From a virus: a stretch of DNA of 25,826 nucleotides. The stretch lies in IMG/VR virus record IMGVR_UViG_3300025138_000308, positions 1-25,826 of that record. One strand, written 5' to 3'. Shown in pieces: positions 6,639 to 24,979 of this stretch; position 1 is the stretch's first letter, and the number at the start of each line of letters is the position of its first letter. Below the pieces are notes generated by a model. It was not told the origin of the DNA. It saw only the letters and a list, made by a program, of their open reading frames with translations, and did no database searches. Both the position numbers and the translations under genes were made by a program.

Positions 6639-6672
6639 ACTGTTTAAACAATGTAACTCTCTTGCGAGGTCG

Positions 6673-6843
6673 TTACTCCGTAGTTAATTTTTCAACCAAT
6701 AATTCGGTTGTTGTTTTTTTATCTGTTATTAATGTGCTAGTGTTGTATACAGTAATACTTCTATCTACAAATTGATAATATTCGTTATGTATAAAATAAG
6801 TACAACCTTGTAAAAAGAAACACAAGACTATAATTTTTACCAT
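6673..6843 (-). CDS. 56-aa putative lipoprotein, outside the lysis region
   Basis: An unlisted-size small gene beginning MVKIIVLCFFLQGCTYF: a basic N-terminus, a short hydrophobic core, and a lipobox-like LQGC with Cys at 14 (Gln at -2 is atypical). The remaining 42 residues are polar, ending ELLVEKLTTE. The ATG overlaps the end of the preceding gene (ATGGTAA), with only a weak ribosome-binding site, so it would depend on coupling. Candidates are an outer-membrane spanin subunit far from the lysis genes, or a superinfection-exclusion lipoprotein. I cannot distinguish them. Confidence 0.6.
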   Translation of the reverse strand: MVKIIVLCFFLQGCTYFIHNEYYQFVDRSITVYNTSTLITDKKTTTELLVEKLTTE

Positions 6844-7085
6844 TTTTTACAAGACCAATATCCTGCTGTTAATTTACTCTTTTTTTCATCACACTTATGT
6901 CTAGCTCTAAAAGACTTTCTTCTAGCTGGTTGGTCTTTCTTTATGGTCATGTTGGCATCACCAAATCTTACTAACTTGACTGTGTTGCCTTCTTTAGCTA
7001 ATACAGCAAACTTTTTTGTTTTGGTTCTAGCTCGTTTAGGTTTGTTATATCCAGAGAATTTTTCTCCTCTGTAATCTATAGCCAT
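6837..7085 (-). CDS. Small basic phage protein with RRKSFRARH...YW.CKKW pattern
   Basis: An 82-residue basic protein: MAIDYRGEKFSGYNKPKRAR at the start, LAKEGNTVKLVRFGDANM in the middle, and RRKSFRARHKCDEKKSKLTAGYWSCKKW in separate conserved blocks at the end. I recognise this as a widespread small family in aquatic phages, normally near terminase or head genes, with no assigned function. The C-terminal Cys pair (in RHKCDEK and YWSCKKW) could bind metal. Its start overlaps the upstream gene stop by one base. Confidence 0.85.
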   Translation of the reverse strand: MAIDYRGEKFSGYNKPKRARTKTKKFAVLAKEGNTVKLVRFGDANMTIKKDQPARRKSFRARHKCDEKKSKLTAGYWSCKKW

Positions 7086-7252
7086 TATGCTTTAGCTCTT
7101 TGTTGTGATTTTTTAGAAAGCTCACCATAATGGTATAACTTTTCAGATGTTTTGGTATGGTTCTTATGACTATGCAAATCACCATTAGGCATTTTGTGTG
7201 TATTGCCTTTCCATTCCATACCACTTCTAGTGTAATGTTTTACGCCTTTCAT
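7085..7252 (-). CDS. 55-aa phage protein, KMPNG family
   Basis: Reads MKGVKHYTRSGMEWKGNTHK, then MPNGDLHSHKNHTKTS and a basic tail (SKKSQQRAKA). The pattern GVKHY...G.THKMPNG.LH...H...S is a small family seen beside the neighbouring two families in aquatic phages. Its function is unknown. Histidine and lysine richness suggests nucleic-acid or metal binding, but this is only a guess. The stop overlaps the next ATG by one base (TAATG). Confidence 0.78.
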   Translation of the reverse strand: MKGVKHYTRSGMEWKGNTHKMPNGDLHSHKNHTKTSEKLYHYGELSKKSQQRAKA

Positions 7253-7254
7253 AA

Positions 7255-7413
7255 TTAAGCCTTTTTAGTTTTCTTTTTTTTCTTTTTGTTTTTTGCAGAA
7301 TTAGGAAATCCTTTTTGCATTTCTTTGTATGCTTTTTTAGTAATAGTAGATTTCTTTTTAGTTCTACTAGTACCTGCTTTTTTTCTTTTATTTATATTTT
7401 CGTATAAACTCAC
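7255..7413 (-). CDS. 52-aa Lys-rich phage protein, GTG start
   Basis: Starts at GTG, with AGGAGG six bases upstream. The protein begins MSLYENINKRKKAGTSRTKK, continues STITKKAYKEMQKGFPNS and ends in a Lys tail. The pattern SLY.NIN.RKKAGTSR...S.I..KAY..M..GFP is a recurrent tiny phage family beside terminase genes. Function is unknown; the very basic composition suggests DNA or RNA binding. The GTG overlaps the upstream stop by four bases (GTGA). Confidence 0.78.
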   Translation of the reverse strand: MSLYENINKRKKAGTSRTKKKSTITKKAYKEMQKGFPNSAKNKKKKKKTKKA

Positions 7414-7565
7414 TCACAACCTCCTTGTGTTTCAAACCATCTGCGTAGTTCTTCTAGTCTGTTATGTATGTTTTTTTCTTTTTCTTTTTGTTCATTACTT
7501 TCTTTGTTTTTTTCATTGGATTGTTTTTGTACCCTGCTCCCATTTACCTTCTCCTTATCAGACAT
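7410..7565 (-). CDS. 51-aa charged helical protein
   Basis: Reads MSDKEKVNGSRVQKQSNEKN, a Glu/Lys-rich linker, and a C-terminal amphipathic helix NRLEELRRWFETQGGCE. Its end makes a GTGA junction with the next gene, supporting real translation. Its own start has no good ribosome-binding site; coupling to the upstream gene, which overlaps it by 8 bases, is likely. A 29-codon frame (7454-7543) lies inside it in another frame with a better ribosome-binding site. I do not recognise the family. Confidence 0.55.
   Translation of the reverse strand: MSDKEKVNGSRVQKQSNEKNKESNEQKEKEKNIHNRLEELRRWFETQGGCE
7454..7543 (-). CDS. Possible 29-aa overlapping micro-gene
   Basis: Starts MGAGYKNNPMKKTKKVMNKK and ends TYITD. 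The ATG follows AAGGAGAAGG within a few bases, a far stronger ribosome-binding site than that of the frame containing it. The basic composition resembles the neighbouring tiny proteins. Either this or the enclosing frame could be the real gene, or both. I recognise no family. Confidence 0.3.
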   Translation of the reverse strand: MGAGYKNNPMKKTKKVMNKKKKKKTYITD

Positions 7566-7716
7566 TAAAAATTTGTTCGCATTTTTGTATTCGCAAACAA
7601 CCTAAATCTATTATAAAATAACTATAACTAGTTTTGTTTCTGCTGTCATCTATTTTTTCAGCTTCATAAAATTCAAAACCAAGTTGGAATCCCATAAAAA
7701 AATGCCATGACCACAT
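7558..7716 (-). CDS. 52-aa phage protein, GFEFYEAE...IIDLG family
   Basis: Reads MWSWHFFMGFQLGFEFYEAE, then SYFIIDLGCLRIQKC and a short tail. The GxEFxEAE...YFIIDLGxxRIQ pattern is a small conserved phage protein of unknown function. The start has AGGAA 6 bases upstream, two bases after the stop of the previous gene, and its end overlaps the next start by 8 bases. The N-terminus is aromatic and hydrophobic but too short for a confident membrane segment. Confidence 0.75.
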   Translation of the reverse strand: MWSWHFFMGFQLGFEFYEAEKIDDSRNKTSYSYFIIDLGCLRIQKCEQIFNV

Positions 7717-7717
7717 A

Positions 7718-8116
7718 TTACATTCCTTGATTTTGCAAATAATTTTGCATCATTTGTTCTTTTATTAGCTGGTCAAAAAGATTATCTTCACGTTGTTGTG
7801 CTTGTATACTTTCTAATTCCATCATTTGTTGTAAATTTTGTTGCTCTCTTGGAGACATTTGCCCTTGAACACCTGTAGGAGCATTATTACGCATATTCAT
7901 AATCTCATCCATATAACTTCTTCTTTGGTCTCCTTGAAACATTCTCATTTCTTGGTCTGATACATTACCTACATTACCTTGCCCTTGCATAGCAGCATTA
8001 GCATTAGCAAACATTTGCCTTTCTCTGTTTGATACATTACCAAATCCTCCTGCTTCAGACATCATAGCCTTTGATTGTATTATTTTAATAAGTTCTGTTA
8101 AGGGCATATTGTTCAT
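7718..8116 (-). CDS. Met/Gln-rich virion-type protein with repeated GNVSxxExxMF
   Basis: A 132-residue protein, low in aromatics and very rich in Met, Gln and Asn. GNVSNRERQMF at 26-36 and GNVSDQEMRMF at 50-60 are internal repeats, with a looser third match (GQMSPREQQNL) at 85-95. The same motif, GNVSDREVAMF, appears in the 505-aa putative ejection protein at 22644-24161, linking the two functionally. Gln/Met-rich helical ends resemble structural or ejection proteins. The start has AGGAAA 6 bases upstream. Exact role unknown; a minor capsid or ejection accessory is my inference. Confidence 0.78.
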   Translation of the reverse strand: MNNMPLTELIKIIQSKAMMSEAGGFGNVSNRERQMFANANAAMQGQGNVGNVSDQEMRMFQGDQRRSYMDEIMNMRNNAPTGVQGQMSPREQQNLQQMMELESIQAQQREDNLFDQLIKEQMMQNYLQNQGM

Positions 8117-8150
8117 AATATTTTCCTGTTTTTATAAATATTTTATTTAG

Positions 8151-8229
8151 TATATACATAGTCTAGACATGTTCTAGACATGGTATAGACTTCGTATAGA
8201 ATAGAGAAGAGAAGAGTAGAGAATAGTAT
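8151..8229. repeat. 11-bp tandem array beside terS (iteron-like)
   Basis: Consecutive 11-mers read TATATACATAG, TCTAGACATGT, TCTAGACATGG, TATAGACTTCG, TATAGAATAGA, then degenerate purine-rich units ending in TAGAGAATAG. The consensus is TMTAKAC plus four bases. The array fills the intergenic space between terS and the next gene. A period near one helical turn puts every unit on the same DNA face, as expected for cooperative protein binding. A TerS-bound packaging site, origin iterons, or a promoter-control region are possible. The same consensus recurs at 13627-13702. Confidence 0.7.
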
Positions 8230-8264
8230 ATAGTTAAAAAATAAAAATTAGGTACTGGCGTTTA

Positions 8265-8804
8265 TTAATCTATTCCAGTAACTACTTTTATGTTTATAGG
8301 GGCACCCCCTTCTCCTGTTAATTCTGTAGTAGTTTTTTCTGACCATTGAGCACGAGTCTTTAACCAAAACATCATAGATGCAGTATCACCTTGTTTAGCT
8401 TTCTCATACAATGTACCAGCAATAACTGCGTTAGCTTCTATACGACCTTTCTCTAATTCATTCTTATAATACTTAGAAAGCGTATCATGAGACATTCCAA
8501 GCACAAGGGCTATATCTTCATACCTAGTACCTACTTTAGATAATTCATAAACCTCATTTCGGGTAGTCGCTAAAATTTGGTGTCGGGGTCTTCCCCTTTT
8601 CCTTCCTGTGGATAACTTCTGCTCATTTTTTAAGCAATCGTCCTGTGATGCAGTCATATCAAGGGGTTGGGTTTGCTTGTCTGTGGATAACTTCTGCTTA
8701 TTACCTTGTGGATAACTTTCTGTTGCTTCTAACTCATTGATTTCATTATGTTTATTATTCATATGTTTAAACGTCTTTTTATAAATTGTTTTTATTCTGT
8801 GCAT
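8265..8804 (-). CDS. terS: Terminase small subunit
   Basis: A 179-residue DNA-recognition subunit of the packaging motor. The conserved part begins at residue 68 with GRKRGRPRHQ. A helix-turn-helix follows at about 94-111 (YEDIALVLGMSHDTLSKYY), then GRIEANAVIAGTLYEKAKQG and ASMMFWLKTRAQWSEK, the usual TerS pattern. The first 67 residues are polar and variable. Their DNA carries several TTATCCACA sites, so the real start may be later: ATG 8762 (codon 15) follows GTTTAAAC as terL does, and ATG 8657 (codon 50) is another option. None has a strong ribosome-binding site. Start uncertain; family call good. Confidence 0.88.
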   Translation of the reverse strand: MHRIKTIYKKTFKHMNNKHNEINELEATESYPQGNKQKLSTDKQTQPLDMTASQDDCLKNEQKLSTGRKRGRPRHQILATTRNEVYELSKVGTRYEDIALVLGMSHDTLSKYYKNELEKGRIEANAVIAGTLYEKAKQGDTASMMFWLKTRAQWSEKTTTELTGEGGAPINIKVVTGID

Positions 8805-8818
8805 AAACCTGTGGATAA
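8607..8818. repeat. Cluster of DnaA-box-like sites in and before terS
   Basis: On the plus strand TGTGGATAA (complement TTATCCACA, the canonical DnaA box) lies at 8607-8615, 8682-8690, 8707-8715 and 8810-8818; TGTGCATAA (TTATGCACA, also a consensus match) lies at 8798-8806. The first two sit inside an 18-bp direct repeat, CTGTGGATAACTTCTGCT. Within terS the sites are read in two different frames (as QKLST and SYPQ), which argues for selection on DNA rather than protein. Candidate host DnaA-binding region. Confidence 0.7.
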
Positions 8819-9142
8819 CATTGGGCTTGTTTTAAGCCCGTTTAAGCTATTATATTTTGCTGTAAGGGGCAAGGTTAAAGAATGTTTAAAGTCTTTATGA
8901 TGAGCCTTGTAGATACTTTCATGAGCCTATTAAACCTTTTACCCCGTTATATTTACGCTTAAATACCTAACCTATTGATTTAAGGCGTTTTAAGCCTTTT
9001 TAAATTCATATGAATAATAGGTATTAAATGCAAATAAAAAGCTCATAGTGAGCCTTGTAGATATGTCAAATTAGATTGATTGTTGAAACGCTTGATTTAA
9101 TAGGGTGAATTATACTATAGAAAGGCTTTATTTTCAAGGCAT
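8819..9142. other. Non-coding AT-rich stretch with hairpin and 15-bp direct repeats
   Basis: No credible gene on either strand. It contains the hairpin GGGCTT-GTTTT-AAGCCC at 8823-8839, and two exact copies of TGAGCCTTGTAGATA at 8901-8915 and 9049-9063. The second copy closes a small hairpin, GCTCA-TAG-TGAGC, at 9041-9053. Near-palindromic GTTTAAAG/CGTTTAAG variants are also present. With DnaA-like boxes on its left edge, it may belong to a replication or regulatory region. Confidence 0.5.
8849..8854 (-). promoter_or_regulatory. Possible -10 element upstream of terS
   Basis: A perfect TATAAT on the minus strand, about 45 bases before ATG 8804. No convincing -35 is present (ACCTTG at 17-base spacing), so it may need an activator such as the Q/sigma-like protein. 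A GGGCTT/AAGCCC hairpin (8823-8839) would lie at the transcript's 5' end. Confidence 0.35.
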
Positions 9143-9167
9143 TAAAAAAGCCCCTAAAAAGGGGCTT
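9143..9167 (-). terminator. Rho-independent terminator, minus strand
   Basis: Read on the minus strand: stem AAGCCCC/GGGGCTT with a six-base loop, followed by a TTTT run. It lies just after the 46-aa gene and would end the SprT operon before transcription reaches terS. Confidence 0.82.
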
Positions 9168-9173
9168 AATTAA

Positions 9174-9382
9174 TTGATACTGTTTAGATTAAGCTACCTC
9201 TAATTTGTGGTCATAAACTAAATCTCTTAATTCACTAACAAATTCTAATGCTAATTCTTTTTCCTCAAGCTCTATCATTTTTTCTGTAGCTTTTAGCAAT
9301 GTATTTAAAAGTTTTGTTTTAGTGTCCATTATTTTTATTTCCTTGTGTTATTAATAAATTTGATACTGTTTAGATTAGGCTA
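9174..9382. repeat. 23-bp direct repeats around the 46-aa gene
   Basis: Copies at 9174-9196 and 9360-9382 (TTGATACTGTTTAGATTA followed by AGCTA or GGCTA) match at 22 of 23 bases, 186 bases apart. Each includes the stop codon and last codons of a gene: the 46-aa gene and the SprT-like gene. The arrangement looks like duplication of a 3' end or insertion of the small gene by homologous recombination. Confidence 0.8.
9189..9329 (-). CDS. 46-aa acidic helical protein
   Basis: Reads MDTKTKLLNTLLKATEKMIE, then a Glu-rich helix and LRDLVYDHKLEVA. It is probably a single amphipathic helix. AAGGAAAT precedes the start by about 9 bases. It lies between the SprT-like gene and a terminator, bracketed by near-identical 23-bp repeats. 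Function unknown. Confidence 0.65.
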   Translation of the reverse strand: MDTKTKLLNTLLKATEKMIELEEKELALEFVSELRDLVYDHKLEVA

Positions 9383-9977
9383 TATCCATTTCAACGCCAC
9401 AATGAGATGGCAAGCCGTAATTATTTATAGCACCGTTAGAACATCTAGCAATAAACCCACAGCATGAACATTCTAATTTAATCATTCTTGTAGATTGTTT
9501 TTTTCTATCTGCTTTTAGATTTATAGAGCCATGCGGATATTTTCCAATCTCTTTAATCCATTCTTTTATTAATTTAGATAATTCAATACCAGCACACGCT
9601 TGAGCATATTTTTTACTTCCGTCCATACCTATTTTTTTACATATAGCTCTAAATTCTTTTCCATGTGCTTTGCTTTTTGGGAATAAATCAGTTTGTATTG
9701 CATGCACTAATTCATGAAGCAATATATCAATAACCTGATACGTATCATCTACAATGGGATTTATGAATATTTCATGTTTACCAATACTCGAAGCTTTAGG
9801 GTTGATATGAACCCCTAAAGTGTCAAATTTAGCTCCAATTCTAGTGTTGGGAGGATAACCGCATGCCACCATAATGTTTTTGCTTAATCTATGTAAATCA
9901 TAATGATTTTTTGCGAATATTAATTGAGCTTTATTTATGATTAAATTTAAATATGTCTCTCTATTTATATTTTTCAT
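9375..9977 (-). CDS. SprT-like zinc metalloprotease
   Basis: A 200-residue protein. HELVH at 89-93 with a third histidine in AHGKEF (H105) forms the zinc-binding catalytic site, with E90 as the general base. The C-terminal part is a zinc ribbon with Cys at about 170, 172/173, 179 and 193. This matches SprT/Spartan-like phage proteins; the eukaryotic relative Spartan cleaves proteins crosslinked to DNA. No signal peptide, so cytoplasmic. The start has AAGGAT 5 bases upstream, and a strong promoter lies ahead. It may remove proteins blocking phage replication or degrade host DNA-bound proteins; the substrate cannot be read from sequence. Confidence 0.88.
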   Translation of the reverse strand: MKNINRETYLNLIINKAQLIFAKNHYDLHRLSKNIMVACGYPPNTRIGAKFDTLGVHINPKASSIGKHEIFINPIVDDTYQVIDILLHELVHAIQTDLFPKSKAHGKEFRAICKKIGMDGSKKYAQACAGIELSKLIKEWIKEIGKYPHGSINLKADRKKQSTRMIKLECSCCGFIARCSNGAINNYGLPSHCGVEMDIA

Positions 9978-10044
9978 TTTGTATCCTTTTAATGTTGTTT
10001 TTTTACAACACCTCCAAAATGGTATTGCGTTGGTGTTGTAGTGT

Positions 10045-10072
10045 ATTTTACACTGTCAATTTATACTGTCAA
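10045..10072 (-). promoter_or_regulatory. Promoter for the SprT operon
   Basis: -35 TTGACA (10067-10072), 16-base spacer, -10 TAAAAT (10045-10050). A second TTGACA (10054-10059) lies inside the spacer, starting 13 bases after the first, an arrangement repeated at 12066-12093. GTTTAAAC at 10083-10090 sits just upstream of the -35. Confidence 0.75.
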
Positions 10073-10090
10073 GTGTTTTATCGTTTAAAC

Positions 10091-10337
10091 ATGCTTATTT
10101 TTTTAATGCTTTGAATCCCTTGCTACATAAGGCTTTCAAGACGGCTTGCAGAATAGCCCCGTATGAGCTTTTTTGTAAACCTCTAATGCTATCCTATCAT
10201 AAAGTGTAAAGATTGATTGACAAGCTTTATATATACCTTAATGAGCTTTTTTAACTAATGCTTAATTTTTAGGCATAATACTTGAGTAATTTATAGGGTT
10301 ATTATGATTTTTAACAAGTGCTTAATTTTTAATCATC
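10091..10337. other. Non-coding AT-rich stretch
   Basis: I see no gene. It contains repeated short words: TGAGCTTTTTT (near 10168 and 10250) and GCTTAATTTTTA (near 10261 and 10320). It lies between the SprT promoter and the DnaA-box/A-tract module and may be part of an origin region. Confidence 0.45.
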
Positions 10338-10453
10338 TGTGGATAAGTCTATAAAAGTTATCCACAATGTATCCACAGCGTTTAAACAGAAAAAAAATAA
10401 AATAAAAATAAAAAAATAATTAAAATAAAAAAATAAAATAAGATTGTTTAAAC
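10338..10453. other. Candidate replication origin: DnaA-like boxes beside an A/T-only tract
   Basis: Two perfect TTATCCACA sites face each other (10338-10346 reverse, 10358-10366 forward) and a one-mismatch copy, GTATCCACA, lies at 10369-10377. Next is GTTTAAAC (10380-10387), then about 50 bases with no G or C and A-rich on one strand (10390-10441), then another GTTTAAAC (10446-10453). Boxes followed by a weakly paired A/T tract is the layout of bacterial origins (DnaA binding plus unwinding element). Confidence 0.5.
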
Positions 10454-10462
10454 AGAAAAATA

Positions 10463-10493
10463 AGACAAAAAAAACCCCGTAAAAAATACGGGG
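10463..10493 (-). terminator. Rho-independent terminator, minus strand
   Basis: Stem CCCCGTA/TACGGGG with a five-T loop on the minus strand, followed by eight T residues. It lies just after the 58-aa gene and would shield the DnaA-box module from read-through. Confidence 0.88.
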
Positions 10494-10511
10494 CTTGTAT
10501 AAAATAAAAAA

Positions 10512-10688
10512 CTATCTCATAAGAAAGAGAGTATCATCACAACGCCCCTTATAATTAGCTGTCAGTTTTTTAGGCTCTTGGCTTGAATCATAAGCAAATG
10601 ATTTCATAACAGGGAATTGCCATAACTTCTGCCCACTTGCACCAATTAAAAAATAGTTTTGTAAAAGTGTTGTTTTAGTAATTTTCAT
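10512..10688 (-). CDS. 58-aa basic protein, unknown
   Basis: Reads MKITKTTLLQNYFLIGASGQ, then KLWQFPVMKSFAYDSSQ and a basic end. AAGGAATC precedes the ATG, a promoter lies upstream at 10728-10756, and a strong terminator follows, so it looks like a stand-alone transcription unit. No family recognised. Confidence 0.65.
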   Translation of the reverse strand: MKITKTTLLQNYFLIGASGQKLWQFPVMKSFAYDSSQEPKKLTANYKGRCDDTLFLMR

Positions 10689-10727
10689 TTTTAAGATTCC
10701 TTTTAAATTAAAAAATGTTACAAGTAC

Positions 10728-10756
10728 ATTAAAACATAAATAATAAATAATGTCAA
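10728..10756 (-). promoter_or_regulatory. Promoter for the 58-aa gene
   Basis: -35 TTGACA (10751-10756), 17-base spacer, -10 TTTAAT (10728-10733) on the minus strand, about 40 bases before ATG 10688. Confidence 0.6.
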
Positions 10757-10763
10757 TTTATAT

Positions 10764-11141
10764 TTATATTAAATCATTGTTTGAACAGTAAGACATAAAA
10801 CGATTATAATATTTTAGTGCTTTTTCTGGCTTTATATTATAGTCGTTTTCTAATGTTTTAACGTGTTCGTCTTCTAATTCTGTGTATTGTAATTCGTAAT
10901 TCATAAATAAATCAAAAGCAATTTTATAGTCTGTTTTTAGTGCTTTTTCTTTTTCAATATTACTTTTTTTTATTTTTTCAAAATCATTAACAAAATTTTT
11001 ATAATTTCTTTTTGGCAAATAACCACCCATGCCAATCCTTACATAAGGTATTAAATTTTTTTCTATTTGACTGTCAAACTGTTCTTTATTAAAAGCAAAA
11101 AATCCTTTGTGATTCTCTAATAAATTATCTATATTAATCAT
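10764..11141 (-). CDS. 125-aa protein, unknown
   Basis: Reads MINIDNLLENHKGFFAFNKE, then PYVRIGMGGYLPKRNYKNF, a Lys/Glu helix and a C-terminal segment with YNIKPEKALKYYNRFMSYC. No family recognised; soluble and mostly helical by composition. The start is unusual: GTTTAAAC (11142-11149) fills the spacer between the GGGAG ribosome-binding site and the ATG, so whatever recognises that palindrome could block translation or transcription here. Confidence 0.75.
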   Translation of the reverse strand: MINIDNLLENHKGFFAFNKEQFDSQIEKNLIPYVRIGMGGYLPKRNYKNFVNDFEKIKKSNIEKEKALKTDYKIAFDLFMNYELQYTELEDEHVKTLENDYNIKPEKALKYYNRFMSYCSNNDLI

Positions 11142-11158
11142 GTTTAAACACTCCCTTT

Positions 11159-11320
11159 TTAATTATATAGTGATGTTGATAAAATTAAATTCCTGCTTAT
11201 ATTATACTTATCGGAAACTTTCCACTCTGCTATTAATGCACATCTTGCTTTTATATATTTTATATCTACATAAACACTATCAACATTTTTTTTAAAAACT
11301 ACTTTATATAATGCTTCCAT
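11159..11320 (-). CDS. 53-aa protein, unknown
   Basis: Reads MEALYKVVFKKNVDSVYVDI, then KYIKARCALIAEWKVSDKYN and a short tail. AAGGGGTG precedes the ATG by about four bases. It sits between the 66-aa and 125-aa genes in the same operon. No family recognised. Confidence 0.65.
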   Translation of the reverse strand: MEALYKVVFKKNVDSVYVDIKYIKARCALIAEWKVSDKYNISRNLILSTSLYN

Positions 11321-11330
11321 AATTCACCCC

Positions 11331-11531
11331 TTATTTATATAATCGTTTATAAAATTTATTTTTAACAGTGCCAAAATTCCTAGAATAAGCATTTACACCA
11401 ATAGTAAAAATAGTATCTGCATCAATATTCCTAGATAATAACAAAGCAATGTATTCTTTTGGAATGGGAGAAAGCCCAAAATGCTTATAAAAATTATTTC
11501 TTATTTCTTTTAACTGATTATTTATATTCAT
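11331..11531 (-). CDS. 66-aa protein, unknown
   Basis: Reads MNINNQLKEIRNNFYKHFGL, then SPIPKEYIALLLSRNIDADT and a basic C-terminus. The N-terminal half looks like a small helical domain, possibly DNA-binding, but no clear helix-turn-helix is visible. First gene of a minus-strand operon with a near-perfect promoter at 11572-11599; AAAGGGAT precedes the start. Confidence 0.68.
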   Translation of the reverse strand: MNINNQLKEIRNNFYKHFGLSPIPKEYIALLLSRNIDADTIFTIGVNAYSRNFGTVKNKFYKRLYK

Positions 11532-11571
11532 AATTTAATCCCTTTTAAAATTAATTTAACTTACAATTAAA

Positions 11572-11599
11572 ATTATATATGTTCTTATTATCTTGTCAA
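11572..11599 (-). promoter_or_regulatory. Near-consensus promoter, 66/53/125-aa operon
   Basis: TTGACA (11594-11599), 16-base spacer, TATAAT (11572-11577) on the minus strand, about 40 bases before ATG 11531. Confidence 0.8.
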
Positions 11600-11654
11600 G
11601 TATTATTTACAATATTATATAAATAAATAAAACTATGTTTAAACAGTTTATTTA

Positions 11655-11685
11655 AACCAAAAAAATAGGGAGCGTTTAAACTCCC
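11655..11685 (-). terminator. Terminator with GTTTAAAC in its loop
   Basis: On the minus strand GGGAG/CTCCC closes a loop containing GTTTAAAC, followed by a T-rich run. It follows the 69-aa gene. The palindrome in the loop (11674-11681) could itself pair or bind a regulator. Confidence 0.65.
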
Positions 11686-11690
11686 TAATA

Positions 11691-11825
11691 AAATTATTAG
11701 CCAACTTAAAAGGATTAAAAAAAACTAATAATTTTTAATCATGGCAAAGAAAATGAATAAAAAAAATTGCCATAAAAAAATAAAAATAAAAAATAAAAAA
11801 TAAAATTAAGCCAATAATTTATTAT
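11691..11825. other. Gene-free A-rich stretch
   Basis: Lies between the terminator and the 69-aa gene. It contains an ATGGCAA/TTGCCAT inverted repeat (11741-11774) with a 20-base loop, then an A/T-only tract. I see no supported gene; a 20-codon Lys-rich frame lacks a ribosome-binding site. Confidence 0.5.
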
Positions 11826-12035
11826 TTAAGTGTTTGGGAGGGCTATCTTGATAGTCCCATTGTCAAGTCTTAATTTAATTTTCTCATTCTTTTTAATAGA
11901 TGATTCTTTAAAAAGTTTAATTGCTTCTTTTTTTGTATAACCAACATATTTAACTTTTTTATTATTTTCTGAAATAATCATTGTATCAAATCCTAAATTA
12001 TTCCAATTTTTACATATAATTTTAATATCAATCAT
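11826..12035 (-). CDS. 69-aa protein, unknown
   Basis: Reads MIDIKIICKNWNNLGFDTMI, then SENNKKVKYVGYTKKEAIKL and KNEKIKLRLDNG near the C-terminus. The latter segment is nearly identical, in protein and DNA, to the end of the adjacent 54-aa gene (KNENIKLRLDKK). A perfect promoter lies ahead at 12066-12093 and an AAAAGGAT ribosome-binding site precedes the ATG. Family not recognised. Confidence 0.7.
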   Translation of the reverse strand: MIDIKIICKNWNNLGFDTMIISENNKKVKYVGYTKKEAIKLFKESSIKKNEKIKLRLDNGTIKIALPNT

Positions 12036-12182
12036 TTTTATATCCTTTTTTATTAATGTAATTTAATTATAGCATGTCAATTCTTTTTGTCAAGTCTTAA
12101 TTTAATATTCTCATTCTTTAAATAATTTCTTGTTGCTCTTTTTTCTTTTGCTGTTGGGTATCTATCGTGATAGTCCCATTGT
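11850..12182. repeat. Two shuffled direct repeats across the 69-aa and 54-aa genes
   Basis: Thirty-two bases (starting TGTCAAGTCTTAATTTAAT) at 11861-11892 recur at 12088-12119 with one mismatch. GATAGTCCCATTGT at 11850-11863 recurs at 12169-12182. The two blocks abut in one copy and are about 50 bases apart in the other. The 32-base block is read in the same frame in both genes; the 14-base block is read in different frames. Confidence 0.85.
12066..12093 (-). promoter_or_regulatory. Consensus promoter for the 69-aa gene
   Basis: TTGACA (12088-12093), 16-base spacer, TATAAT (12066-12071). A second TTGACA (12075-12080) lies in the spacer, as in the SprT promoter. The -35 overlaps the last codons of the 54-aa gene. 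Confidence 0.85.
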
Positions 12183-12241: not shown

Positions 12242-12322
12242 AAAAAATAATCCTTAAAAAAATAAAAAAATAAAGGGCGTTTAAACTTATTTAATTTAGT
12301 ACGATTTAGTACCATATAAAAA

Positions 12323-12350
12323 ATCATAGCACGTAAATATATCTTGTCAA
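12323..12350 (-). promoter_or_regulatory. Leftward promoter of the divergent pair
   Basis: TTGACA (12345-12350), 16-base spacer, TATGAT (12323-12328). Its -35 is four bases from the rightward -35, giving the perfect palindrome TGTCAA-GGGG-TTGACA apart from the G core. Confidence 0.8.
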
Positions 12351-12354
12351 GGGG

Positions 12355-12382: not shown

Positions 12383-12414
12383 GTATTTACATTAATAAAA
12401 AAAGGGTAAACAAT

Positions 12415-12588
12415 ATGACTATAAAAAACCAAGAAATTAAAGAACTTAAAATATCAGAACTACAAAAATTTTTATTAGAAAGTATTTTATGGAAGTGGGT
12501 AAGTATTAATAAATGGGATAAAGAAAAAGCAAAACAAATAAGAAATATATTAAGACAAGTAGAAGATTTAAGGTTTAAACAAAACTAA
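12415..12588 (+). CDS. 57-aa early leader protein, unknown
   Basis: Reads MTIKNQEIKELKISELQKFL, then LESILWKWVSINKWDKEKAK and a helical end. A longer frame starting at 12373 would overlap the promoter and begins with an unlikely MSLCIYINKK, so I use ATG 12415, which follows GGGTAAA. First gene of the early operon. No family recognised. Confidence 0.65.
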   Translation: MTIKNQEIKELKISELQKFLLESILWKWVSINKWDKEKAKQIRNILRQVEDLRFKQN

Positions 12589-13159: not shown

Positions 13160-13327
13160 ATGGAACCAATGACATTACAAAAAGTTATGGAAAAATTTGA
13201 GAATCAATCAGATTTAGCAAGGCAGTTAAATGTATCAAGACAAGCAGTAAATGTATGGTTTAGGGACAATCGCATACCAAAATTAAGACAATATGAGATT
13301 GCAGATATTATTAATAAAAGTGTTTAA
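13160..13327 (+). CDS. Cro-like helix-turn-helix regulator
   Basis: A 55-residue protein: MEPMTLQKVMEKFENQSDLA, then RQLNVSRQAVNVWFRDNRIP. Residues 17-40 are a clear helix-turn-helix (SDLARQLNVSRQAVNVWF), with the conserved RIP turn of Cro/YdaS-type proteins. GGAG precedes the ATG. The final codons and stop are embedded in GTTTAAAC (13322-13329), making that palindrome a natural candidate operator, although which sequence it binds is not shown. No partner repressor is visible, so it need not mean lysogeny. Confidence 0.83.
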   Translation: MEPMTLQKVMEKFENQSDLARQLNVSRQAVNVWFRDNRIPKLRQYEIADIINKSV

Positions 13328-13344
13328 ACATAAAAAGGATAATA

Positions 13345-14004: not shown

Positions 14005-14903
14005 ATGTAGGGGAGGTTGTAGAGCAATTAACAATAACTAAACAAGAGTTAATATCAGAAGGGTATTACGAGGATAAAGAAGATTTTAAAATTAAATCTA
14101 CTGATGACATGTATGATGATGTAATTAAGTATTACCGACAAGAAAAAAATAGTGGCTATCCATTAGGTTGGGCAAAAACTAGCCCTGATTTTATGATTCG
14201 TAAAGGTGAAACTACTTGTATTACAGGCAGTAGTGGTAGTGGTAAAAGTATGATTTTATCGCAGATTTTGTTACATGTTATGAACTATACCAAAGTATTA
14301 GTAGCAAGTATGGAAATGCGACCTGTTATACAGATTGCAAGAATGTTATCGCAAGTAGGTTTAAACGACCCAACAGATGATGGCATAAAAGATTTCTGCG
14401 ACAAGTACAAAGAAAAATTATATATTTATGACCAACAAGGTACTACTACTGATAAAGACCTGTTTGCAAGTCTGCACTATGGTAAGCAAGTATTAGGTTG
14501 TGATGTGTTTGTTATTGATAGTTTGATGAAGATAGATAGCATATCAGAAGAAGACTATGGAGCACAAAAAAAGTTTGTAAATAGATTAAGTGTGATAGCA
14601 AGAGATTTAGGTATACACGTTTTTTTGGTTTGTCATACTAAAAAGACAGATGAAAGCACATTACCAGATGCTACACACATTTTAGGCAGTAGCCACATTA
14701 GAAACTTGGTAGATAACATTTTATGTTTATGGCGTAACAAGGAACATGAGAAATTAGCAAATACTGGTGATTTGCCAGAAGATAGAAAGAATGAATGTAC
14801 TGCTTTAATGATGGTGCAAAAGCAACGCAATTATACTTATGAAGGTACATTTGGTTTTTGGTTTGACATTAAAACATTAACTTACAAGGAAAGACCATTA
14901 TGA
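14001..14903 (+). CDS. RecA-fold replicative helicase, DnaB-type ATPase domain
   Basis: A 300-residue protein corresponding to the motor domain of DnaB/T7 gp4-like helicases, without a primase domain. Walker A is GSSGSGKS at 76-83, catalytic Glu is in VASMEM (E105), Walker B is VFVIDSL at 169-175, the sensor is VCHTKK (H212), and GSSHIRNLVDNILCLWRN and QKQRNY carry the subunit-interface residues. It unwinds DNA at the fork, presumably recruited by the preceding organiser. No separate primase is visible, so priming probably uses the host. Overlaps both neighbours by ATGA. Confidence 0.9.
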   Translation: MNVGEVVEQLTITKQELISEGYYEDKEDFKIKSTDDMYDDVIKYYRQEKNSGYPLGWAKTSPDFMIRKGETTCITGSSGSGKSMILSQILLHVMNYTKVLVASMEMRPVIQIARMLSQVGLNDPTDDGIKDFCDKYKEKLYIYDQQGTTTDKDLFASLHYGKQVLGCDVFVIDSLMKIDSISEEDYGAQKKFVNRLSVIARDLGIHVFLVCHTKKTDESTLPDATHILGSSHIRNLVDNILCLWRNKEHEKLANTGDLPEDRKNECTALMMVQKQRNYTYEGTFGFWFDIKTLTYKERPL

Positions 14904-15031
14904 CTATAAACGAAGTATTAAAAGAGTTTAAACGCACTTTTGGAAACTTTGAATACAAAGCGACTAGCAAAGATGGTAGAGTATTTAAATCTAGCGGTTT
15001 TGACAAAGCAAATAAAGTATTGACAAAATAA
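14900..15031 (+). CDS. 43-aa basic protein, unknown
   Basis: Reads MTINEVLKEFKRTFGNFEYK, then ATSKDGRVFKSSGFDKANK and a short end. The ATG overlaps the helicase stop (ATGA). A possible promoter begins in its last codons (15020). GTTTAAAC lies in codons near the start. Function unknown. Confidence 0.65.
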   Translation: MTINEVLKEFKRTFGNFEYKATSKDGRVFKSSGFDKANKVLTK

Positions 15032-19432: not shown

Positions 19433-19457
19433 GCTTACCCCTTACCTAATGTATTTA

Positions 19458-19495
19458 AATCGCTTACAGAGCGATTGTGGAGGTCGTTTTTTTCT
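19458..19495 (+). terminator. Hairpin and T-run at the convergent junction
   Basis: AATCGCT/AGCGATT with a TACAG loop (19458-19476), then a T7 run about nine bases later. It lies where the plus-strand early operon meets the minus-strand late genes, so it probably ends early transcription. The distance from stem to T-run makes it imperfect. GTTTAAAC follows at 19496. Confidence 0.5.
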
Positions 19496-19506
19496 GTTTA
19501 AACGCA

Positions 19507-19668
19507 TTAATCATCTAATTGTGGTACATTAGCATATATACTGTCTACTATCATTTCTACACTAGAACCATCATTTAAATAAATAATTAACGTATTTTCT
19601 CCATAAACAACGTCAACAGAATCAATAGTTTTACCTATTATATAATCTGCTATTTCTTGTACGTCCAT
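19507..19668 (-). CDS. 53-aa acidic protein, unknown
   Basis: Reads MDVQEIADYIIGKTIDSVDV, then VYGENTLIIYLNDGSSVEMI and a short acidic end. AAAGGAAG precedes the ATG. Small beta-rich fold likely. It is the last gene of the minus-strand lysis operon, between the endolysin and the convergent terminator. GTTTAAAC sits upstream at 19699. No family recognised. Confidence 0.7.
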   Translation of the reverse strand: MDVQEIADYIIGKTIDSVDVVYGENTLIIYLNDGSSVEMIVDSIYANVPQLDD

Positions 19669-19713
19669 AGAGACTTCCTTTATGTGTTGAAATTGTATGT
19701 TTAAACCCTTTCA

Positions 19714-20169
19714 TTATTTAGTATAAATTGTTGTCCCATTTTTATTAATAATTAATGCTTCTTTTCTTGGGTTATCCTGTGAAAAAGATATATGCACCCA
19801 CCCACTATCTGGATTATAAGGGTTATGAAATTCAAGGATAAGCTGGTCATAATGAATATTGGAGCTAACAATAGCAAACACAATGTTGCTAGGATTGCCA
19901 TAACGACTTGATGTAAAATCACAAGCCAAACCCTGAGTGTGTTGAGAACTTGGTTTGCTGCCAAGTATAGTGTTAAGCTCAAGACAGCGATAACCAGAAG
20001 ATATGTGTATTGCTGTACCCAATAACTTTCTAACATCTTCCATCCTCTCTGCTAAAAATTGTAAGTTTTGAAGAGCATCTTTATCTGGTGTATTGTCTAT
20101 ACCTTTTCTACTAGCTGTTTGGCTAAAAGTAAACTCTTCTAATGTAAAATGTGGCGTTAGCCTTGTCAT
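19714..20169 (-). CDS. Endolysin, M15-family peptidase
   Basis: A 151-residue protein of the M15 (VanY/Hedgehog-like) group that cuts peptidoglycan peptides. SSGYRCLELNTILGSKPSSQ at 57-76 leads to H77 and ACDF (D84); WVHISFS supplies H126; these are the zinc ligands, with E113 in ILEFHN possibly catalytic. No signal peptide, so it needs the holin encoded just before it. ATGA overlap with holin. Length matches phage M15 endolysins. Confidence 0.9.
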   Translation of the reverse strand: MTRLTPHFTLEEFTFSQTASRKGIDNTPDKDALQNLQFLAERMEDVRKLLGTAIHISSGYRCLELNTILGSKPSSQHTQGLACDFTSSRYGNPSNIVFAIVSSNIHYDQLILEFHNPYNPDSGWVHISFSQDNPRKEALIINKNGTTIYTK

Positions 20170-20537
20170 TTTGTTAAGCCGTTTTTCTTCTCATAGCTAC
20201 GCAATCCTCCTAAACCTAACATACCCATTAGCACAGGTAGCATAGTAGAGGTGTCAGCTTGTGGGATTATAATGCCTAGTGGATGTAGTAATGGAGATAT
20301 AAGAAAGTTTATAGCAAACCCAGATACACATACCCAACCTACTGCTGGTCGCCAACCTGCTTGAAACCATGCACCTTTAGCATCTTCTTTGTTTACTGCT
20401 ATTTGTGCAATAGCTATTTCATGTGCTTGTTTTTCTGTAAGTGTAGCTATGTCATGTGCTAGTTTATTCTTGGTGTCTGCATCAGGTATAAACTTGTCTA
20501 GTAATGCTGTTACTGGTGCTATAAGTGCTTGAAACAT
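20166..20537 (-). CDS. Holin, 3TM family
   Basis: A 123-residue protein: N-terminal helix around LDKFIPDADTKNKLAHDIAT, a helical linker, then GAWFQAGWRPAVGWVCVSGF at 55-74 and two further hydrophobic helices to about 113, ending RSYEKKNG. W-x-x-x-GWRP-x-x-GW is the hallmark of the 3TM holin family found in many phages and gene transfer agents. It forms membrane holes that release endolysin, whose gene overlaps it. Confidence 0.9.
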   Translation of the reverse strand: MFQALIAPVTALLDKFIPDADTKNKLAHDIATLTEKQAHEIAIAQIAVNKEDAKGAWFQAGWRPAVGWVCVSGFAINFLISPLLHPLGIIIPQADTSTMLPVLMGMLGLGGLRSYEKKNGLTK

Positions 20538-20650
20538 TAGTTAGTCCATCCATATAATAAACATAATACTAAAGGAGTAATTGGTAGTGCTGCAAGTACA
20601 GCAAGTGTTATTACTACAGGTTTACCAAATAACTTTTTTAACGATTTCAT
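20537..20650 (-). CDS. 37-aa membrane peptide in the lysis cassette
   Basis: Reads MKSLKKLFGKPVVITLAVLA, then ALPITPLVLCLLYGWTN: a basic N-terminus then one or two short hydrophobic helices broken by Pro. TAATG junctions with both neighbours. Position and form suggest a holin partner or pinholin-like peptide. Confidence 0.68.
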   Translation of the reverse strand: MKSLKKLFGKPVVITLAVLAALPITPLVLCLLYGWTN

Positions 20651-20853
20651 TATTGCATCCAATTTTTAATAACTATAGATATTAAACTTCCAAAAAAAGC
20701 AGCACATGAAATAGCAATCCAAAAACCCCCCTTAGACCTTTCAGCTAAAGCTAAAATTTCTTTCATATCTTTTCTAAGTTCGTCTTGTCCTTTTTGCAAA
20801 TGCTCTATTTGTTCTTTCATTTTGCCAAACTCTACTGGGTTTATGTCGTTCAT
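20650..20853 (-). CDS. XhlA-like membrane-anchored coiled-coil protein
   Basis: A 67-residue protein: a coiled coil at 8-38 (EQIEHLQKGQDELRKDMKEI) followed by SKGGFWIAISCAAFFGSLIS and a C-terminal tail. Coiled coil plus one C-terminal membrane helix is typical of XhlA-like lysis proteins, which act with holins. No spanin pair is visible in this cassette. TAATG overlap with both neighbours. Confidence 0.78.
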   Translation of the reverse strand: MNDINPVEFGKMKEQIEHLQKGQDELRKDMKEILALAERSKGGFWIAISCAAFFGSLISIVIKNWMQ

Positions 20854-22643
20854 TATCTTGCTCCACCACCACGAATAGTAATAGTAGGAATTGATGGGTC
20901 TTCGCTGTACAAATATGGAGCTAATTCAGCTTTAGTAGTTTCTAATAAACTAGGAATAAATGTTGCAGCTCCAACTCCACCTCTACTAGAAGCACTTTGA
21001 AGTAAACCACTACCTGTAGGCATATAATTTCCAGAGCTTAATGCTCTTTGTGAATTTTTACTTAATAATAAGTTAGGAATAACTTTTTCTGCTCCTAATA
21101 ATAAAGGAATACCATAGCCATTTGTAGCATAACCAACACCACCATATTTTGTGGCTTGAAGAATTCCTTGCTGTATGCCTGCTTTAGATAGTGGGGCTAC
21201 TTTACTTGCAGGTTTTACAACATCTCCATATTCTTCAACAAAGTCCATAATTTTTTTACCTTCACCATCTACTGGGGCTTTGTTTCTTGTGTTTTTTTTG
21301 TAAAAATCAGTAGCATCTAAATTGCCTTTTTTAACAGAACTTTCTACATTAAATGCTCTAGCGTAACTTTGTTTAGCTTCTTTTAAACTATCAATTATTT
21401 TTGTGTCACCATATTTTTTAGCTACAACTTCAAGTTCTGTTTCTGCTTTGTCTAATCGTGCTTTTTCTTTTTCTATTTTTTTGTAATCAATAGGCTGTCC
21501 ATCTCTTTCAGCTTTTTTTCTAGCAGCTCTCCAAGCATTAGCATATTCTAACTTTATTTTTTTTATATCTTTTAGTATTTCTTTTCCACTTCTGGAATAA
21601 ACAGTTTTTGTTTTAGATGGTAGTGGGGTTACTGTTTTCATAATTGGTTTACCACTTGCATCAAGAAACCCTGTATCTATTTCTTTTGGTTTACCTTTTG
21701 TAGTTTTACTTTTTTTCAAAACAACAGGCTTATAAGATTTTATAGTATCGTATGTGCCTTTATATTTGTCTGCAACGAAGTCTACTAATTTTGTTAATGG
21801 AGTTGTTTCTGGTATATCCTCACTTACAAATTTTCTAGCTTTATTATCGAATATTTTTTGATTTATTTCTATAGCTTTGTTTTTTGTGTCACCAAATAAT
21901 GATTCTGCACTTTTTCTAATATTTCCTGCTTGTTTAGTAGAACTAGGAGGAACAACAAACCCTTCTTCAGTAAATTGAGCTAATTTAGCATCCACATCAG
22001 CCATTTGAGCTTTTTTTATGTCTGCTGCATTTTTAATTTTGTCAAAAGCCATACCTGCTGGTTTAGTAATTATTTGAGTTGGGTCTATAGCACCACTTAT
22101 TTTACTTCCTATTTCTCCTGCTTTTTGAAGTCCAGAAGAATACTGTTGTGCTTTTAATGGAAGAGTTATACCACGACCTAAAACACTTAAATCTAACAAG
22201 CTAGTAACAGGTTTTTCAGCTAGTCTTTTTTTAATACCACCTTCTGTAGCAAGTTCATTAAATTCGTCTGCAATAACACTTCTATATTTACGATACTTTT
22301 CCATTTGTTGAGGATTAGCATATTTAGCTAAACCAAGTTCGTCTACTAATTTAGATATACCTGATGAACCTAAATCTATCATACCTTCCATAGCTTGAAC
22401 AGCACCTGATGGAGTAAACATTGATGCTGCACCTTTTACAAGATTTTTTGCATCAGGAATAACATTGCCCAATGCAGTAAGGGCTACTTCACCAGCACTA
22501 GAATCTGCTGTAATACCTTTTTCTGGTAATGAGTTTGAATAAGACTGTATTTCTTGAGCCATTATTTTTGCTTTGTCAATCTCACCTGCTTCATATGCTA
22601 TATTCATAGCTTTTTCTAAATTTTGTAAATGTGTATCACTCAT
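20853..22643 (-). CDS. Putative internal virion / ejection protein
   Basis: A 596-residue protein. Its helical N-terminus (MSDTHLQNLEKAMNIAYEAG) is followed by small-residue-rich hydrophobic stretches, then a long Lys/Glu-rich helical middle (about 230-430), and a Gly/Leu-rich hydrophobic end. The helix-rich, locally hydrophobic form and downstream position after other virion genes resemble proteins ejected with the genome in podoviruses. No enzymatic domain or transglycosylase motif is visible. I infer role from context only. Confidence 0.72.
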   Translation of the reverse strand: MSDTHLQNLEKAMNIAYEAGEIDKAKIMAQEIQSYSNSLPEKGITADSSAGEVALTALGNVIPDAKNLVKGAASMFTPSGAVQAMEGMIDLGSSGISKLVDELGLAKYANPQQMEKYRKYRSVIADEFNELATEGGIKKRLAEKPVTSLLDLSVLGRGITLPLKAQQYSSGLQKAGEIGSKISGAIDPTQIITKPAGMAFDKIKNAADIKKAQMADVDAKLAQFTEEGFVVPPSSTKQAGNIRKSAESLFGDTKNKAIEINQKIFDNKARKFVSEDIPETTPLTKLVDFVADKYKGTYDTIKSYKPVVLKKSKTTKGKPKEIDTGFLDASGKPIMKTVTPLPSKTKTVYSRSGKEILKDIKKIKLEYANAWRAARKKAERDGQPIDYKKIEKEKARLDKAETELEVVAKKYGDTKIIDSLKEAKQSYARAFNVESSVKKGNLDATDFYKKNTRNKAPVDGEGKKIMDFVEEYGDVVKPASKVAPLSKAGIQQGILQATKYGGVGYATNGYGIPLLLGAEKVIPNLLLSKNSQRALSSGNYMPTGSGLLQSASSRGGVGAATFIPSLLETTKAELAPYLYSEDPSIPTITIRGGGAR

Positions 22644-24161
22644 TTAATCTATACCTAATAATTCATTAAAAATTGTTTTAGATTCAGGACTACTAAATAC
22701 AGGGGTATTTGGTTGTTTATTAATCTCTTCTTGTAATGTATTTACTTTTTGATTTCTTATTGCATCTGAAGCCGAAGATGGGTATTGTTTGTATGTGTGC
22801 ATAGCATTGTTTAATGAATTTGACCATTGGTCCTCTCCATAATCTTCTATAAAAACTGTTTTATATTCATTTGTAAGAATTTTTGACTTACCATATAAAT
22901 CAACCAATGCTTCATAGAGTTTATCTCTACTACCACCAATAGCTAAATATTCTTGCATATTTTGGAACATAGCTACTTCTCTATCAGACACATTACCTAC
23001 AGCACCACCAGTTGGGTTATTAGCTCTCATTCTTTGTATTTGTTCTGTAAATTGTTTACTTTTTAGTGAATTTAAAAAATTAGCAACATCAGCAGCTTTT
23101 CCACCAGATTCTGCAAACCAATTTCCAGTACTTTCATTAAATTTAACAGCAAATCTTCCTGTAGTTGTAAATAAAGCATTTAATGCTTCTGGGTCATCTA
23201 ATATTTTTTCAATATTTTTAGATACATCTCTTGTTGTTGTTAGTCCGTAACGAGCTAATCCTTTGTCTTTTACTCTTGCATCTAAAACTTTTTCTTTTCT
23301 TTTTCTAAATCCTTCTACACCTAAATCAGGGTCAAGGTATTCTTGAACTCTTAATGGCAATTTATTAAAATCTTCTACTGACATAATTTTTTTATTTGCT
23401 GTTTTTACCATACCTTCAGGAACAACTTGTTGTTCTAGTTGTGAATTAACAGATGTATTGATATTGTTAGACATATCAGCATTGTTAGTTTTTTGTAATC
23501 TTTTAATAAAGTCTAATTTACCATTATTTAAATAGTTAGGTTTGTATAATGGGTCATTTTGTGCCTTTCTATTTTCTTCTGCATTATGAGTATCAACATC
23601 TTTTTGGTCTGGTAATTGATTAAAGTAAGTTACCATACCTGCTTTATCTTGAGGAATATTAAATCTATCTTTAATACCTAATGATTGATACAACATTCTT
23701 TCTTCTTCAGTTATTTTATTATTTGCAAAATATTTGTCAGGGTTTATAGCTAACTCTGCTGCTTTCATAGGTGGCAATGTTTTTACATATCTTTGAATAC
23801 CATCTAATTTAGATACATCCAAAACAGATTTTACTCTTTTACTTTGCAAGTCGTAAGGTTGTTGTGCAATATCACCTTGTAATTTTTGTGTTTTTAAATT
23901 AGTATTTAAAATATCTTGTCTTGTTATATAGTTTTTAGTTTTTTTATCTACAATACCTTGTCTACCTGCACTTGCTCCTACATACGCTTCTAAAAGAGAT
24001 TTTGGAGTTACGCCCTGTTGAATTAAAGGAGCAGCAAGCCCTAAAGCAGTAGCAACATTAGCTTGTTGGTCAAAATTAGTTCCTAACAAAGAATCTGGAA
24101 CTACACTAGGAGTAATACCAAGAAGTTTATCTAAATTTTCTTTATCTAATAATGATGCCAT
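22644..24161 (-). CDS. Putative internal virion / ejection protein with GNVSDREVAMF
   Basis: A 505-residue, mostly helical, polar protein. It starts MASLLDKENLDKLLGITPSV, has AAPLIQQGVTPKSLLEAYVG near residue 50, and a central Asn/Gln-rich region. GNVSDREVAMF at 389-399 matches two sites in the 132-aa protein beside terS, suggesting a shared partner. The stop abuts the next start (TAAATG). Context suggests a virion component that enters the host with DNA; not proven. Confidence 0.72.
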   Translation of the reverse strand: MASLLDKENLDKLLGITPSVVPDSLLGTNFDQQANVATALGLAAPLIQQGVTPKSLLEAYVGASAGRQGIVDKKTKNYITRQDILNTNLKTQKLQGDIAQQPYDLQSKRVKSVLDVSKLDGIQRYVKTLPPMKAAELAINPDKYFANNKITEEERMLYQSLGIKDRFNIPQDKAGMVTYFNQLPDQKDVDTHNAEENRKAQNDPLYKPNYLNNGKLDFIKRLQKTNNADMSNNINTSVNSQLEQQVVPEGMVKTANKKIMSVEDFNKLPLRVQEYLDPDLGVEGFRKRKEKVLDARVKDKGLARYGLTTTRDVSKNIEKILDDPEALNALFTTTGRFAVKFNESTGNWFAESGGKAADVANFLNSLKSKQFTEQIQRMRANNPTGGAVGNVSDREVAMFQNMQEYLAIGGSRDKLYEALVDLYGKSKILTNEYKTVFIEDYGEDQWSNSLNNAMHTYKQYPSSASDAIRNQKVNTLQEEINKQPNTPVFSSPESKTIFNELLGID

Positions 24162-24163
24162 AA

Positions 24164-24979
24164 TTATGTTGCCCTTCTTATTTTGTATGGTTGTGTTGGG
24201 GTATATGTACCTTTTATTGCTTGTCCTGCTCTGGGGGATATAGGAGGTTGTTGAGTATTACCAGCAGATAGTGCTGTTAAACCTAATCCAGCCATTGCTA
24301 CTGGGTTTTCTTCTGCAAATCCTACAACGCTATCAAATGCTCTTTCATATAATGGTTTTTCAAAACCACCTTGTGCTGCTGCTATTTCTTCTGGAGTAGA
24401 TTTAGTTATATTATCAAATTTTGGAGCTTGATTTATTTTATCAAAAGTGCCATCTATATTTCTTGCAGAAGTATCAAAATTAGCTGTTTGCATTTGTTTA
24501 GTAGGGTCATTAGTCATTAATGAACTTACATAATCTGGAGTAGTAGTTGAACCTAATCGGTTTACTCCAATATCAGGAGTCATATTTATATATTGTTGTT
24601 TAAACGACATATCAGGAGCTATGCCTCCACCTAAAGGTTGATAGCTATTTGAAGCTAATAATGTTTGTTCTGCTGGAGCAGTAAATCCAGTTAAATTAGC
24701 TGTTTGACCACCCATACCAACATTATTAAGAGGTATGGTATTTCCAGTATTACTGCCTAATAAAGAAGTGCCACCTTGTAAGGAGTTTGCAGTTGCAGTA
24801 GAGGTTGCATCAGCAGGGTTTACACCTTTAAACATATCGCCAAAAGGTAACTTGCCACCAAGATAACCACCTGCTGCACCCATAGCTGCATCTTGTGCTA
24901 TACCTTTTAAATCTTTACCTTGTACAAGTCCTTTACCTGCACCTACAAGAGTTCCAACTGTAACTGGGTCCATTGCCAT
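24164..24979 (-). CDS. Gly/Ala-rich putative ejection protein
   Basis: A 271-residue protein: MAMDPVTVGTLVGAGKGLVQ, then AAMGAAGGYLGGKLPFGDMF, an Asn/Thr/Gly-rich disordered centre, and a hydrophobic segment, NPVAMAGLGLTALSAG, near residue 230. Gly zipper-like segments suggest membrane insertion during ejection. It overlaps the upstream gene by one base. Family not recognised with certainty. Confidence 0.7.
   Translation of the reverse strand: MAMDPVTVGTLVGAGKGLVQGKDLKGIAQDAAMGAAGGYLGGKLPFGDMFKGVNPADATSTATANSLQGGTSLLGSNTGNTIPLNNVGMGGQTANLTGFTAPAEQTLLASNSYQPLGGGIAPDMSFKQQYINMTPDIGVNRLGSTTTPDYVSSLMTNDPTKQMQTANFDTSARNIDGTFDKINQAPKFDNITKSTPEEIAAAQGGFEKPLYERAFDSVVGFAEENPVAMAGLGLTALSAGNTQQPPISPRAGQAIKGTYTPTQPYKIRRAT

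Follow-up and report, generated by a model that had tools for sequence, protein, structure and literature searches.

Which factor reads the palindrome GTTTAAAC, repeated many times in a viral stretch of 25,826 nucleotides (the whole stretch analyzed, hereafter the window)? A preliminary description had counted 19 copies, 17 of them between 8765 and 19706, and had taken them for binding sites of a phage regulator, with a 55-aa Cro-like protein as candidate, or of a host factor, or for a self-complementary RNA element. We recovered all 19 at the same coordinates and the same 17 in that interval. Among the palindromic 8-mers of the window, GTTTAAAC leads by a wide margin (19 copies; runner-up: 7). 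Following the comparisons proposed there, we obtained a mean of 1.08 and a maximum of 4 copies in 100 dinucleotide shuffles, and the motif was still over-represented against a maximal-order Markov estimate (19 vs. 9.6), which is the most conservative one and is built from the motif's own sub-words. One-mismatch variants were not enriched in the window (20 seen, ~25 expected), and recognition therefore appears to be exact. The distances to gene starts were reproduced (terL, 3 nt; 125-aa gene, 0 nt; organiser gene, 15 nt; 87-aa gene, 13 nt), and two sites do include a stop codon. The copies of GTTTAAAC, and the SprT-like gene considered below, are as follows (strand is assigned to the gene only):

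6642–6649: site 3 nt before the terL start; inserted into the SD-ATG spacer when compared with motif-poor relatives
8765–8772: site preceding an alternative terS-like gene start by 2 nt
9375–9977, minus strand: SprT-like zinc metallopeptidase with C-terminal zinc ribbon, 200 aa, proposed reader (PF10263, PHROG 6361)
10083–10090: site ~105 nt upstream of the SprT-like gene
10380–10387: site forming the left border of an A/T tract beside DnaA boxes (putative origin)
10446–10453: site forming the right border of the A/T tract
11142–11149: site immediately 5′ of the ATG of the 125-aa gene (DUF7659)
11637–11644: site, member of a pair 37 nt apart; the pair is 36 nt apart in relatives
11674–11681: site in the loop of a terminator-like hairpin (minus-strand)
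12279–12286: site between the left and right early operons, in their divergent intergenic region
12573–12580: site 8 nt before a 52-aa ORF
13322–13329: site that covers the final codon and the stop codon of the Cro-like gene and precedes the organiser gene by 15 nt; also conserved in Venkman, G008, and L147
13419–13426: site within the replisome-organiser gene
14359–14366: site within the DnaB-like ATPase gene
14926–14933: site in a small ORF 3′ of the ATPase gene; conserved in Venkman and L147
16121–16128: site within the YqaJ exonuclease gene, conserved also in G008 and L147
17603–17610: site that includes the stop codon of a 59-aa ORF and lies 13 nt before the 87-aa gene
19496–19503: site directly past the end of the 53-aa gene
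19699–19706: site 30 nt before the 53-aa gene (minus strand)
24598–24605: site within the 271-aa gene

Positions 10330–10460 are a likely replication origin, with an A/T-rich tract between two GTTTAAAC copies beside DnaA boxes. Perfect DnaA boxes adjoin the tract at 10338 (minus) and 10358 (plus), and four more occur in the window, at 8607, 8682, 8707, and 8810.

Site number differs sharply among close relatives. The nearest isolate, Methylophilales phage Venkman (terL 93%), has 34 GTTTAAAC in 38.6 kb, several at places equal to those in the window, so that the positional conservation proposed as a check is seen. Whole-contig counts within the same phage group are 33, 20, 19, and 1 (G002, G004, G005, and G003, respectively), and the count is 0 in G007 and in Manatee Spring phage. 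The terL of G003 is ~94% identical to that of Venkman, yet the two differ 1 to 34, and motif-poor phages have other letters at the positions orthologous to GTTTAAAC sites. The motif is equally abundant in unrelated GC-rich viral contigs, which were found by a pattern scan for a Shine-Dalgarno sequence followed by GTTTAAAC and ATG; one of them (G022) has 40 copies in 48.8 kb.

Several other features of the relatives deserve mention. Drift from GTTTAAAC to GTATATAC was considered and rejected, the GTATATAC copies belonging to a separate 11-bp iteron array. These tandem iterons, followed by AGATAAGATAAG repeats (L121 224–264; L101, from G008; L126 407–447), occur at two places in relatives as a separate regulatory array. 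Contig L145, which might have passed for a recombinant that breaks the rule, joins G003-type and Venkman-type early regions head to head with the Cro segment duplicated; it is probably an assembly chimera, in which 7 sites lie on the Venkman-type half and the G003-type half has none. Distant organiser-gene relatives in other phages (L160–L182) have 0 GTTTAAAC vs. 8 expected, which may reflect avoidance. Venkman carries a DNA methyltransferase gene (L085 11091–11672) with no homologue in the window or in the other relatives.

When all proteins of the motif-rich and motif-poor contigs were clustered, a SprT-like family was found in 16 of 20 motif-rich contigs (the remaining four being partial) and in 0 of 9 motif-poor ones, and it was the only family so distributed. 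We then assembled a prospective set of 222 viral loci (2.53 Mb, not all independent, as about ten contigs are present twice) fetched solely for encoding a SprT-like protein. Three separate query alignments were used, one mixed alignment being too diverse for the collection scan. GTTTAAAC occurs 1532 times in these loci against 36.1 expected (next palindrome: 78 vs. 15) and is the top palindromic 8-mer in 189 of the 222; GTTTAAAC and/or GTGTAAAC are in excess in 216, and the six loci lacking a clear excess are mostly short contigs. In 120 neutral viral loci without SprT, GTTTAAAC was not enriched (30 vs. 36.3 expected) and was the top palindrome in none. The link is also near-exclusive: among the longer elements compared, SprT is present in 165/165 and the next real family in 74/165. 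In three loci (L470, L481, and L499), AATACTAG is the top 8-mer (8, 10, and 13 copies) on top of the SprT motif, a second repeated word.

The rule holds in isolated phages of Burkholderia, Dinoroseobacter, Enterobacter, and actinobacteria and in plasmids of Magnetospira and Pseudomonas. Isolates chosen for SprT have many more GTTTAAAC than expected (Mica: 7 vs. 0.20; R5C: 10 vs. 0.10; Pan1: 10 vs. 0.07), and in 4A and the actinobacterial phages GardenState, Tweety19, and Marky no 8-mer is more over-represented than GTGTAAAC. Among plasmids, Magnetospira MGMAQ_p has 18 sites vs. 0.53 expected and Sphingobium pTK6 3 vs. 0.07, and a sister site, GTGTACAC, is enriched in the P. viciae plasmid (9 vs. 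0.40) and in pBN5 (4 vs. 0.23). The gene common to these plasmids and the SprT phages is essentially SprT alone (15/16 phages). Motif variants are clade-specific, the motif class following the SprT tree with 20 changes against a shuffled mean of 95. Another variant is seen in L586, a SprT phage with 21 ATTTAAAC in place of GTTTAAAC. Because nearly every SprT-carrying phage or plasmid sampled has GTTTAAAC or a sister site, the SprT-like protein is probably the reader; the association is observed, and direct binding is what we infer from it. The earlier proposal of a binding site for a phage-encoded protein therefore fits, its choice of the Cro-like protein does not, and the SprT-like gene that tracks the motif had gone unmentioned.

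The SprT-like protein of the window matches Pfam PF10263 (E = 4e-8; 33.5 bits, gathering cutoff 25.6) and PHROG 6361. Its HELVH motif lies at 88–92 and its ribbon loop, KKQSTRMIK, at 159–167. Across 47 diverse members, H88, E89, H92, and H105 are invariant, giving the HExxH motif and a third histidine ligand. R6, E7, and H149 are invariant as well, as are T163, R164, K167, and C170 in the ribbon. T163, R164, and K167 occur in 219/219 SprT proteins, an invariance of the loop that is inflated because two of the three SprT scans used KKQ[SG]TRM as the search pattern. The AlphaFold model is of high confidence, with a pLDDT of 89.8; its best Foldseek match is the DNA-dependent protease Wss1 (probability 0.91, but E = 0.037 and a low TM-score) and the second is CapP (probability 0.38).

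Changes in the ribbon accompany changes in the site. The near-invariant loop KKQxTRM is altered in both GTGTACAC plasmids (KKQSKRHIK and KKQTRRHIK), and no sites occur in two SprT phages whose ribbon is degraded, Eden and Epa5. We predicted in advance that P. viciae-related SprT proteins with an intact T-R loop would keep GTTTAAAC, and this held in Arya, Persinger, and Mano, whose loops read TRL. There are two exceptions, a SprT without TRM in G020 and one with IRL in Magnetospira, both in elements with GTTTAAAC. Residue 168 was considered as a specificity switch and set aside, the correlation being strong but confounded by phylogeny. Pseudomonas phage Epa5 (L363), whose SprT homologue lacks the zinc ribbon, has 0 GTKTAMAC and 48 CCCTGGGC instead.

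The target is best described as a dyad of GTKT half-sites, because SprT isolates and plasmids use GTTTAAAC, GTGTAAAC, or GTGTACAC. When the SprT loci are pooled, the TT form exceeds expectation 42-fold, the TG form 10.7-fold, and ATTTAAAC 3.4-fold, and the remaining related words are near 1. A symmetrized logo built from 1068 distinct sites shows Y/R at ±5 and, less strongly, symmetric preferences at ±9 and ±10, a symmetric extended pattern such as would be expected for a dimeric protein on double-stranded DNA. In the 40 nt that precede gene starts, sites are 2.8 times denser than they are in coding sequence, and 77% of sites in the SprT loci lie inside genes. Several sites in GardenState fall between apparent −35 and −10 elements, and in Tweety19 directly 3′ of the −10. 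The SprT gene is preceded by a site at a distance of 16–21 nt in Mica, Arya, Persinger, and Mano, and of 62–73 nt in Pan1, Marky, and the Magnetospira and P. viciae plasmids. Overall, a site is found in the 100 nt that precede 36/165 SprT genes (22% vs. 8% expected, a 2.7-fold enrichment). Universal autoregulation was rejected, only this 22% having such a site, although the arrangement is invariable in the Mica-like group; a role at promoters alone is at odds with that same 36/165 and with the 77% in coding sequence. One SprT clade (L341 15–52, L507, L513, and L521) has two GTTTAAAC 30–31 bp apart around GAACGTTC, followed by an A/T stretch, and the GAACGTTC palindrome is itself enriched (115 vs. 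34).

We consider it likely that the phage's own SprT-like metallopeptidase (9375–9977) has the GTTTAAAC copies as its cognate DNA sites. We hypothesize that a SprT-like family in phages of Proteobacteria and actinobacteria, and in some plasmids, recognizes the dyad GT[T/G]TA[A/C]AC (half-site GTKT, flanks CANNNY..RNNNTG) as double-stranded DNA, most likely reading it through the C-terminal zinc ribbon (KKQxTRMxKxxC), and that each element would retain several to ~40 exact copies in its own genome. Over-representation at gene starts, at promoters, and upstream of SprT points to gene regulation, including autoregulation of SprT, and the many sites inside genes suggest that the protein may also mark or patrol its own DNA. 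Repressors, silencers, defence proteins, and other proteins bound at the sites could be targets of its protease activity. More tentatively, and at a strength well below that of the site assignment, these proteins may be sequence-addressed proteases, in which an evolvable ribbon code (TRM reading GTTTAAAC, K/R-R-H reading GTGTACAC) would tether a DNA-activated peptidase to sites in its own genome, where removing or cleaving bound repressors, silencers, or defence proteins would free and mark self DNA.

The simplest account is that the SprT-like protein itself reads the sites, and the main rival is a hidden partner: a separate DNA-binding protein, either a fast-evolving phage repressor or a host factor, would read the sites, with SprT as its partner protease. 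Sites close to promoters in GardenState, Tweety19, and the P. viciae plasmid would suit such a pair, as would the CapP fold match, and DNA-activated protease-repressor pairs are known (PMC10904395). We nevertheless think it unlikely, given that no second gene family is common to the elements (next best 74/165), that plasmids and phages share essentially SprT alone, and that the motif variants go with changes in the SprT ribbon.

A translation-start or other RNA element resembling the SAS of cluster K, or a gene-cassette junction, is very improbable. It would account for the six Venkman sites lying exactly between Shine-Dalgarno sequence and ATG, often including the stop of the preceding gene, and for the 2.4-fold excess of ATG immediately 3′ of sites; against it, most sites are in coding sequence and are dispersed through genes in GC-rich phages, and the palindrome with symmetric flanks out to ±10 is an extended DNA dyad, which also makes the self-complementary RNA element of the preliminary description unlikely. 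We give even less credence to a host-derived word or a methyltransferase or restriction site (HIP1-like or PmeI-like). The exact 8-bp palindrome and the methyltransferase encoded by Venkman would favor it, but that enzyme (gp32) was seen in Venkman only, no cognate methyltransferase gene being found elsewhere, and the SprT-motif link spans phyla and GC contents; a host word or host factor is further opposed by 60 genomes of the host family, Methylophilaceae, with no GTTTAAAC enrichment, and by the 34-to-1 difference between phages with terL ~94% identical. Binding by the 55-aa Cro-like protein is scarcely credible and already largely refuted: the site at the end of the cro gene is kept in all motif-rich relatives, but the Cro family occurs in 8 rich and 6 poor contigs, such a Cro is absent from most motif-rich phages and plasmids, and it was rejected as reader because L118–L128, with the same recognition helix (ISRQAVSKWF) and the organiser gene, have 0 GTTTAAAC.

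More than 150 sequenced phages, and conjugative plasmids as well, carry a gene annotated as 'SprT-like protease'; its PHROG has no known function, and the family now has a probable DNA target. If the proposal is correct, the SprT/Spartan family would gain its first member with a sequence-specific genome address. Phages and plasmids across phyla would then share a regulatory or self-marking system, and a natural experiment would tie ribbon residues to DNA letters. The motif by itself predicts a SprT gene, which should aid in annotating unknown viral genomes.

Our literature search found no paper describing the motif. The nearest system in kind is the SAS of cluster K mycobacteriophages, a short repeat found mostly in non-structural genes, with some copies at start codons, and not in the host (PMC3203893). 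SAS is a 13-bp asymmetric sequence (GGGATAGGAGCCC) a few nucleotides before starts in one phage cluster, with no known protein partner, whereas the present site, which does not belong to it, is an 8-bp palindrome in unrelated phages and plasmids with a candidate partner gene and 77% of copies in coding sequence. The stoperators of L5-like (cluster A) mycobacteriophages are 13-bp asymmetric sites read by a helix-turn-helix (HTH) repressor. They too are many dispersed copies of one binding site, with copies at promoters; they lie in one orientation, whereas the site here is palindromic and linked to a metallopeptidase, and the Cro HTH does not track it. PprI/IrrE cleaves DdrO, and CapP cleaves CapH. 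Both pairs likewise tie a zinc peptidase to DNA sites, and CapP is a weak fold match, but they need a separate HTH repressor, and none is conserved here as a second shared family, although a very divergent one could exist. The SprT/Wss1/Spartan proteases are known to bind DNA without sequence preference, which speaks against the proposed reading of GTTTAAAC. The window protein resembles the SprT/Spartan (SPRTN)/Wss1 family in its Pfam match, HExxH motif with third histidine, zinc ribbon, and predicted fold, nearest to Wss1; known members act on DNA-protein crosslinks with no known sequence specificity, whereas here the gene co-occurs with a fixed 8-bp dyad.
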